Assembly (NCBI GenBank): GCA_022819985.1
Contig: JAJEGH010000028.1
Location: 1 to 64,000 of the forward strand
Reading direction: 5' to 3'
Length of the DNA stretch: 64,000 bases
DNA from: Alphaproteobacteria bacterium
GTDB taxonomy: Bacteria; Pseudomonadota; Alphaproteobacteria; Bin65
Below the pieces are notes generated by a model. The model was not told the DNA's origin and made no database searches. It saw only the letters and a list, made by a program, of their open reading frames with translations. The number at the start of each line of letters is the position of its first letter. Within the stretch, counting starts at the first letter, position 1. The position numbers and the translations under genes were made by a program. Of the stretch, positions 1-10,606 are shown piece after piece.

Positions 1-534
1 CTGCGCCTTGCCGAGCGGCTGGCGCTGGTCGAACGGCAGATCGCCGAGGTCGAGGCCGAGCGCGACGCGGTCGTGCGCCGGGGCGCCGCCCTGTCGTCAG
101 CGGCTGCGTCCGGGAACGATACCGCGCAGGCGGCATTGCGGATCGCGGCGCTGACCCGGCTCAAGGGGATCGGCCCGAACGACGCCACCCTGCTGACCCA
201 TGAGGTCTTCTACCGGAACTTCCGCAACCGCCGCGAAGTGGCGGGCTGGGCCGGGATTGCGCCGGCCCCGTGGGCGAGCGGGGATGTCCAGCGCGACCAG
301 GGGATCGGCCGGGACGGGCCGGGCTGGGTCCGGGCCCAGCTCATCCAGATGGCGTGGCGCTGGTTGCGTCATCAGCCCGACAGCGCGCTCAGCCGATGGT
401 TCGAAAGACGCACCGCCGGCGCCGGCGGGCGGGCGCGCCGGGTGATGATCGTGGCGCTCGCCCGCAAGCTGCTCATCGCCCTCTGGCGCTTCTGGGAGAC
501 CGGCCTCGTGCCGACCGGCGCCAGGCTCGCCTGA
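1..534 (+). CDS. IS110-family transposase, C-terminal half (partial)
   Basis: The reading frame is open from the first base, so the N-terminal RuvC-like DEDD domain lies outside the window. A helical charged linker (first ~30 residues) is followed by a Transposase_20-type domain: RLKGIGPNDATLL (helix-hairpin-helix-like), a block ending GWAGIAPAPWASG, then the basic stretch DVQRDQGIGRDG. The Ser in WASG sits where the C-terminal catalytic serine of IS110 enzymes is found. The protein ends in a basic helix rich in Ala, Leu and Arg. No frameshift is visible in this half, so it may be functional if the missing part is intact. The opposite strand also has a long open frame here, which is a high-GC shadow. 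Confidence 0.85.
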   Translation: MRLAERLALVERQIAEVEAERDAVVRRGAALSSAAASGNDTAQAALRIAALTRLKGIGPNDATLLTHEVFYRNFRNRREVAGWAGIAPAPWASGDVQRDQGIGRDGPGWVRAQLIQMAWRWLRHQPDSALSRWFERRTAGAGGRARRVMIVALARKLLIALWRFWETGLVPTGARLA

Positions 535-860
535 GACCGGAACCGCGGCCTTCCAGCTCCGGCCGGACGCGGCCGGGCTGGGCCGGGCGGTGTGTGAGCG
601 GCACTCATCCTGGGCTGAAAGACGCCGATACTCAGAGGGCTCCCACCGCTCGGAACGTTGCGCCCGCAGCACGCGGGATCGGGGCACGGAACCGGCTGCG
701 CCGGAAACCGGCCGGATAAAAGGTGGGTCCGCGCAACCGGCGCGAGACCGAAGCGCAAAAACGTTCCGGCCCGGCAAGCAAGACGATCCCTGCCGAACAC
801 GGAGAACCAACATGAACTAGGGCACACCAAATCCCGACTTGACTGCAAATGCCTCATAAA
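1..860 (+). mobile_element. Right part of an IS110-family insertion sequence, cut by the window edge
   Basis: The transposase C-terminal half (1-534) is followed by about 325 bp without a convincing gene. The right end is placed near 860. At 861 the sequence becomes homologous to the middle of an interspersed repeat that is complete at 10438-10606, so the element seems to have inserted into one arm of that repeat. A TTGACT hexamer at 839-844 lies just inside the proposed end and points outward; IS110 elements often carry a -35 box there that forms a junction promoter in the circular form (family knowledge). A long non-coding 3' flank suits the IS1111 subgroup, whose guide (bridge) RNA is encoded downstream of the transposase; that assignment is inference. 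Confidence 0.6.
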
Positions 861-1036
861 AGGATGAGGAGGAGGGGAATGTTGAGGCGTTTGGACCCCC
901 CAACCTCCTCATCCCGAGTAGGCGCGTCAGCGCCGTATCGAGGGGCCGTATCGAGGGGCCGTATCGAGAGCCTGCCCCGAGCCTGTCGAAGGAGACGCCA
1001 CGCTGCCGCGGCTCCGTCAAAAACGGATGCGTTCTA
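861..1036. repeat. Interspersed repeat, copy 1 (left arm missing)
   Basis: Shares AGGATGAGGA at its start, TCCTCATCCCGAGTAGG at 906, the following CGCGTCAGCGCCGTATCGA and a GATGCGTTCT-like end with 10472-10606. Here the GCCGTATCGAGGG motif is repeated three times (about 931-968). The left arm present in the second copy (TCGATACG...CTACTC) is absent because the IS110 sequence abuts at about 860. No gene is seen between 535 and 1096. Confidence 0.75.
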
Positions 1037-1096
1037 GTGTTGACAGGGGCCGGCCCTACTCCAATTCTCGGGGACTGAAAAGGGGAGTGGCCGGCC

Positions 1097-1294
1097 GTGT
1101 CTCCGGAACTCATCGGATATGTCAATCTTGCCGGGATCGTGGCCGTGGTGGCGTTCCTGTGGCGTGTCGACGCCCGCTGGCAGGATCGGTTCGACGCGCT
1201 GAACCGGAGACTCGGTCAGCTCGGCGAACGCGTTGCCCGAATCGAGGGCATCCTGACGGGAAATCCGGCTCCGCCTACGGAGCCGGCGGAGTAA
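1097..1294 (+). CDS. Small single-pass membrane protein with coiled-coil tail (65 aa), unknown function
   Basis: GTG start at 1097 with an AGGGGAG ribosome site at 1080-1086. The protein has one N-terminal hydrophobic helix (about residues 8-22, YVNLAGIVAVVAFLW) and then an amphipathic heptad-like segment (DRFDALNRRLGQLGERVARIEG), ending in a Pro-rich tail. Such short TM-plus-coiled-coil proteins are common and poorly characterised. It stands alone between a repeat and the ABC transporter operon, and I cannot assign a function. The ribosome site and domain pattern support it as a real gene. Confidence 0.6.
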   Translation: MSPELIGYVNLAGIVAVVAFLWRVDARWQDRFDALNRRLGQLGERVARIEGILTGNPAPPTEPAE

Positions 1295-1520
1295 CGCAAC
1301 GGGAGAAGCGCCCGCCTTCGCGCCGGCGACCTTGCGGCTTGCGCCTGACGCCGAAGCCGCGGCGGCCTGCTGCCTCTGCACGGCGCACCAAGACCCGAAT
1401 GTCAAACCGGGACAGCGCCGCCCCAAACTATCCTAGACAGTGCCGATGGCCTCGGCTTAAGTGCGCGCGCTGACCCGGCGGGCCGGACAACGCTGCGGCA
1501 GCCGTAACGGGAGGCGCTCG

Positions 1521-10437: not shown

Positions 10438-10606
10438 TCGATACGCCCCGCCCTAGCGGGCGGGGCTACTCAGGATGAGGATGAGGGGTGTTGAGGGACT
10501 CGAACACACAATCTCCTCATCCCGAGTAGGCGCGTCAGCGCCGTATCGAGGGGGCCGTATCGAGGGGCGCCACACCGCAGCGAGTCCTTCCGAGACAGAT
10601 ACGCTC
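10438..10606. repeat. Interspersed repeat, copy 2 (complete inverted pair)
   Basis: The left arm (TCGATACG at 10438 through CTACTCAGGATGAGG to about 10482) is the approximate reverse complement of the right arm starting TCCTCATCCCGAGTAGG at 10514. The copy ends at GATACGCTCT (10597-10606). The inner part matches 861-1036, where the left arm is lost. No gene lies between 10346 and 10632. Confidence 0.75.

Follow-up and report, generated by a model that had tools for sequence, protein, structure and literature searches.

A palindromic repeat interrupted by an IS1111-type insertion sequence with a predicted guide RNA in an alphaproteobacterial genome

Organization of the locus

The window – the whole stretch of 64,000 nucleotides analysed here – is the start of contig C35 in an alphaproteobacterial genome (G000) of 4.04 Mb and 51 contigs. 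It opens within an insertion sequence (IS) whose right part runs directly into a palindromic repeat (Table 1). A match to PF02371 (E 1.1e-12) identifies the reading frame at its start as the C-terminal end of a transposase of the IS110 family, and window positions 1-870 are 96% identical to part of a full-length copy on contig C11 of the same genome (C11:33071-33939), which is 1597 bp long (L009:1834-3430). Because the window begins at a contig edge (C35:1), the left flank of the element is unreadable within it.

The preliminary description had proposed that an IS110 element with a right end at about 860 interrupts one arm of a palindromic repeat, and both points were borne out: the IS ends with base 860 (GCCTCATAAA) and the target core opens at 861. 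The subterminal inverted repeats are ATGAGGC and GCCTCAT, with extensions outside them of AGATCCT on the left and AAA on the right. The same description had suggested that TTGACT near the right end is the -35 box of a promoter formed at a circle junction. All 17 right ends that were found without requiring TTGAC contain it (one further match to the pattern in L105, lying within the repeat, was omitted), which supports the suggestion in part; no good -10 box was shown. Rfam gave only sub-threshold matches, at window positions 852-938.

Table 1. Features of the interrupted repeat and its insertion sequence (window coordinates)
Feature	Position	Strand	Basis or remark
IS1111-type insertion sequence, right part	1..860	+	left part past contig edge; 96% to C11 copy
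Transposase gene, C-terminal part	1..534	+	lacks RuvC end; Ser-Gly in Tnp domain; PF02371
IS downstream non-coding region	535..860	+	alignment of 28 elements
Predicted bridge/seek RNA	582..775	+	limits approximate; outer stem; consensus fold of 16 relatives
Predicted RNA loops: target ~589-647, donor ~651-768	within 582..775	+	
Target guide 1 (predicted), CTCATCCT	604..611	+	complement of AGGATGAG right of insertion, core included
Target guide 2 (predicted), TACTCAG	629..635	+	equals left flank plus core
Donor guide 1 (predicted), GGGATCG	675..681	+	tentative match to AGATCC at the left end, which is nearly invariant
Donor guide 2 (predicted), GGATAAAAG	714..722	+	equals right end CATAAA plus AG, save first two bases
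TTGACT, -35-like box of supposed circle junction	839..844	+	conserved in right ends
Right subterminal inverted repeat GCCTCAT	851..857	+	left-end partner ATGAGGC
AAA, 3-bp right extension, IS right terminus	858..860	+	7/3-bp rule (PMC11187229)
AG core common to both junctions	861..862	+	intact sites compared with junctions
Right half of interrupted arm, spacer, intact opposite arm	863..1000	+	end approximate
Opposite repeat arm CTACTC-GG-GATGAG, core GG	908..921	-	arm motif search
Intact repeat copy	10466..10568	+	AG arm 10466-10479; GG arm 10516-10529, minus strand

The palindromic repeat

Window positions 1-1036 match 48 places in the same genome, and most of these matches begin at query position 861. 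Intact copies of the repeat, including the window's second copy at 10472, read ...GGGGCTACTC-AGGATGAGG..., and so the repeat beside the IS begins partway into that arm, with its inner half. The full layout is CCTTCGATACGCCCCGGCC..GGCCGGGGCTACTC-AG-GATGAGG, a spacer, and then CCTCATCC-CGAGTAGGCGCGTCAGCGCCGTATCGAGG; these are two facing arms in which the same place reads AG in one and GG in the other. The genome carries 131 arms of the form CTACTC-RG-GATGAG, 50 with AG and 81 with GG (0 for a control pattern). Of the genomes searched for the arm motif, 6 of 7 in the genus have it and none of 14 others do. A repeat had been delimited at 861-1036; its start at the inner arm of the second copy is upheld, but its end is loose, as the extent of the match varies between copies.

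REP repeats with a RAYT (Y1_Tnp) transposase were considered and set aside, there being no PF01797 match in this genome (97.4% complete); the same profile was detected in 5 of 14 control genomes. Between the repeat and a group of transport genes, window positions 1037-1420 hold a 65-aa frame (1097-1294) and are unmatched at that place in six sister genomes, with weak matches elsewhere in the genus.

Insertion junctions and the missing arm

A search permitting up to three mismatches found three left junctions (C7, C11 and C27) and five right junctions (C11, C27, C35, C37 and C38) in the genome, all reading CTACTC-AG or AG-GATGAGG, respectively. The three left junctions are each preceded by the stem of the AG arm. 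Four of the five right junctions have sequence past the arm, with an intact GG arm about 50 nt further on in each; at the C11 right junction the contig sequence stops 10 nt past the IS. The join can be reconstructed as CTACTC-AG-IS-AG-GATGAGG, where the 2-nt overlap AG (CT on the opposite strand) is the core. All of the junctions lie in an AG-core arm and none in the commoner GG arm. They represent between four and six distinct insertion sites, because the start of C27 and C35 are one site and others may pair. Contigs C37 and C38 share an identical 141-nt start (C37:1-141 and C38:1-141; L213, L214) consisting of the IS right end, repeat and spacer, and then diverge, as could arise from recent copying, rearrangement or an assembly effect.

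The preliminary description had anticipated that the lost arm (CTTCGATACG...CTACTC) would lie beside the IS left end, and had named a left flank devoid of repeat homology as evidence against an interrupted arm. Read as its reverse complement, C27 ends in CTTCGATACGCCCCGGCCTGGCGGCCGGGGCTACTC-AG-ATCCTATGAGG: the lost arm, followed by AG and then the left end of the IS. In six sister species (G001-G006) the reversed stretch from C27 position ~201 continues into window position ~1420, with differing breakpoints (C27 214 in G001 and 254 in G006; window 1509 in G006). From this gene order we infer that C27 is the chromosome directly upstream of the window, on the reverse strand, so that the lost arm does lie in the left flank. 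A reading of C27 as a circular 20-kb element, with IS ends at both contig ends, was dropped because synteny places it in the chromosome beside the window. An empty site was sought in the sister species, and neither the IS nor the repeat was found there in the five whose sequence was inspected, so that no intact repeat is shown at that place; the two flanking genes lie near each other there, with 43 nt between the matched stretches in L215.

The transposase

The C11 copy has a full open frame of 416 aa from the first possible start and matches PF01548, PF02371 and NF033542, the last above its cut-off. A structural model of the protein (mean pLDDT 86.1) resembles the transposases of IS621 (8wt6; Z 21.1, 298 residues, rmsd 3.5) and ISCro4 (9t56; Z 21.5, 301 residues, rmsd 3.5). 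Its catalytic motif consists of E23, E80, D120 and D123, plus S315 (L009:1906-3102), and thus departs from a letter-for-letter DEDD in having Glu for the first Asp while the other three residues are kept. The substitution is present in 42 of 42 readable relatives (44 aligned), and more distant IS110 proteins read GID, GLD or GVD at this motif. E23 would face D11 of IS621, as judged from an offset of 12 between aligned ends, not a printed residue pair, together with the motif comparison. Mutation of D11 is described as abolishing IS621 activity (PMC11208158), and we did not find an EEDD variant named in the literature listings that were searched. The clade-wide replacement allows the identity required of the first metal-binding residue to be tested directly, and sets that require DEDD, such as the curated set described in PMC11187229, could miss the clade.

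A predicted guide RNA downstream of the transposase gene

The non-coding region at 535-860 is predicted to encode a bridge or seek RNA, as in the preliminary description, and has predicted guides for both the target and the IS ends (Table 1). Among 20000 dinucleotide shuffles of 535-838, the 8-mer CTCATCCT occurs in 23, the 7-mer TACTCAG in 34, and both in 0. Guide 1 of the window copy matches at 6 of 7 scored bases, the outermost being the mismatch.

Sixteen sequences share a common fold of 56 pairs, 11 of them with changes on both sides. These both-side changes fill 41 cells, compared with 12.8 in shuffles (0 of 500 reach this number) and 0 to 6 in slid versions; further pair types in the fold are matched by 52 of 500 shuffles. 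The window sequence alone has a folding z of -2.45, and 3 of 200 shuffles fold as well. The conserved fold and the repeat-matching guide loops on which the earlier prediction had been staked are thus both present; the fold shows compensatory changes, and the guides also vary with the target in relatives.

Guide variation among related elements

Relatives with other targets were gathered by a scan from which 80 loci were kept and by a search through 386 genomes, of which 47 had a match. Elements 70-80% alike occupy unlike insertion sites, and the guide slots of these elements correspond to the sites they occupy. We scored 24 right and 20 left flanks from 38 elements. Guide 1 matches the right flank at a mean of 6.31 of 7 positions, compared with a permuted mean of 4.19, and guide 2 matches the left flank at 4.53 of 6 compared with 3.86; 0 of 20000 permutations are as high in either case, counts that overstate independence because the relatives share ancestry. 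In reduced sets excluding G004b, G004c, L108, L109, L113 and L117, guide 1 gives 6.33 compared with 4.17 (18 flanks; 0 of 20000 as high), and true flanks also beat permuted ones for guide 2 (15 flanks; all of 20000 trials). In all 24 readable rows, out of 28, the donor triplet is identical to that of the right end, across five kinds (AAA, AAG, ACA, ATA and GTG).

One element, L102, fails both guides (3.5 of 7 and 3.5 of 6), and guide 2 is weak in L107, L108, L109, L113 and L117. Left unscored were L098, L099 and L100, whose left flanks are 2 to 4 nt at contig edges and which agree by eye, and also L114, L165 and the more distant loci; L111, L112, L121 and L125 were omitted because one end lacks a pattern match, with L111 agreeing by eye. 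The right flank of the G370 element is readable only to AGG, where the contig ends.

Classification and comparison with known systems

The RuvC-like and Tnp domains, profile matches and IS621-like fold place the transposase in the IS110 family, as is the case for the IS1111 group. IS1111 elements are described as having subterminal inverted repeats of 7-17 bp (PMC11208160), with extensions of 7 bp on the left and 3 bp on the right (PMC11187229); those observed here, 7 bp and 7/3 bp, agree, the repeats being at the low end of the range. The long non-coding region lies downstream of the gene, and CTCATCCT at 604 precedes TACTCAG at 629, as in the IS1111 order in which the complement of the top strand precedes the bottom-strand match (PMC11187229). 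Because Asp is absent at the first catalytic place and every other property compared agrees, we call the element an IS1111-group variant.

The closest parallels are drawn from excerpts of the published accounts. ISPa11, an IS1111-family element of Pseudomonas aeruginosa, also targets a palindromic repeat (REP), and the seekRNA given by the non-coding region downstream of its gene copurifies with its transposase (PMC11187229); the repeat and host differ, and the likeness is drawn from the published description. IS621, an IS110-group element of E. coli, likewise targets REP and uses a bridge RNA with target and donor loops and a CT core, which is AG on the other strand (PMC11208160), and its transposase has the same fold. 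Unlike the element described here, IS110-group elements encode the bridge RNA upstream of the gene, and IS621 has shorter subterminal repeats (PMC11208160) and Asp at its first catalytic residue (PMC11208158). ISPpu9, ISPpu10 and ISRm19, also of the IS110 family, are reported to lie in REP at one position in every copy (PMC1525189), a likeness again drawn from the published description.

Proposed mechanism and alternatives

The sequence, its junctions, the guide matches and the conserved fold make it almost certain that this is RNA-guided, IS1111-type insertion into a single site of a palindromic repeat present in many copies. The element represents a variant of a mechanism already known from ISPa11, ISEc11 and IS621 (PMC11187229, PMC11208160, PMC11208158, seen as excerpts), and it is by analogy with these that excision, RNA expression and catalysis are proposed. 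The element would excise as a circle, and one loop of the downstream RNA would guide both sides of the target (CTACTC-AG-GATGAG) while a second guides the joined IS ends. The transposase, with its RuvC-like domain and a Ser-bearing Tnp domain, would cut at the core, AG on one strand and CT on the other, and join the IS to the target, so that the circle inserts at a single site of the repeat. With many copies, exact intact sites, relatives with other targets and a repeat whose arms have unlike cores, the system offers a clean natural case of RNA-guided transposition.

Palindromic repeats are described as targets of several IS families, some of them thought to be protein-directed (PMC1525189), and the transposase itself or the structure of the repeat DNA could select the site, with the matches in the non-coding region as by-products. 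This is highly improbable, given that relatives 70-80% alike occupy unlike sites and carry guides matching those sites. The element could also be a dead remnant, its guides no more than the trace of an old insertion; a contig edge truncates the window copy, and the relatives L106 and L117 have many stops in a simple reading. Against this stand the full open frame on C11, the single guide set shared by several copies and the conserved catalytic positions, and we consider a dead remnant improbable.

The confinement of the insertions to AG arms could be an effect of chance or ascertainment and not of the core, as there are only four to six distinct sites; with 50 of 131 arms having AG, simple arithmetic gives about 0.02 for four in a row and about 0.003 for six. 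Core pairing is described as strongly preferred in IS621 (PMC11208160), and we favour a core effect, chance being unlikely though more credible than either alternative above. Two arms that are alike over the guides and differ in having AG or GG as core are a natural test of the role of the core.

Guides and host repeats

L106, an element with 80% identity to the query over its best segment, sits in CTACTC-AG-GGTGAGG and has the guide CTCACC. Its host has 13 arms by a wider pattern, and the AG arms among them are five GGTGAGG and one GATGAGG. In G000, where the guide is CTCATC, the AG arms include at least 36 GATGAGG and at least 9 GGTGAGG among the arms listed. The L106 guide thus matches the commoner repeat variant of its own host, and the contrast between guides and host arms gives a Fisher p of 0.004; the arms are few and related to one another, which makes this a lead rather than proof. 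It is a tentative but real possibility that this IS1111-type clade works with Glu for the first Asp and that its repeat-seeking members re-tune their guides to the commonest repeat version of the host.

A further relative (L110:993-2586) is inserted in a different palindromic-looking sequence, and repeat targeting may therefore have arisen more than once. Elements 71-76% alike (L097, L098, L099 and L105) are also present in bins labelled Bryobacterales, Pseudomonadales and Vicinamibacteraceae, reflecting either transfer or binning error.
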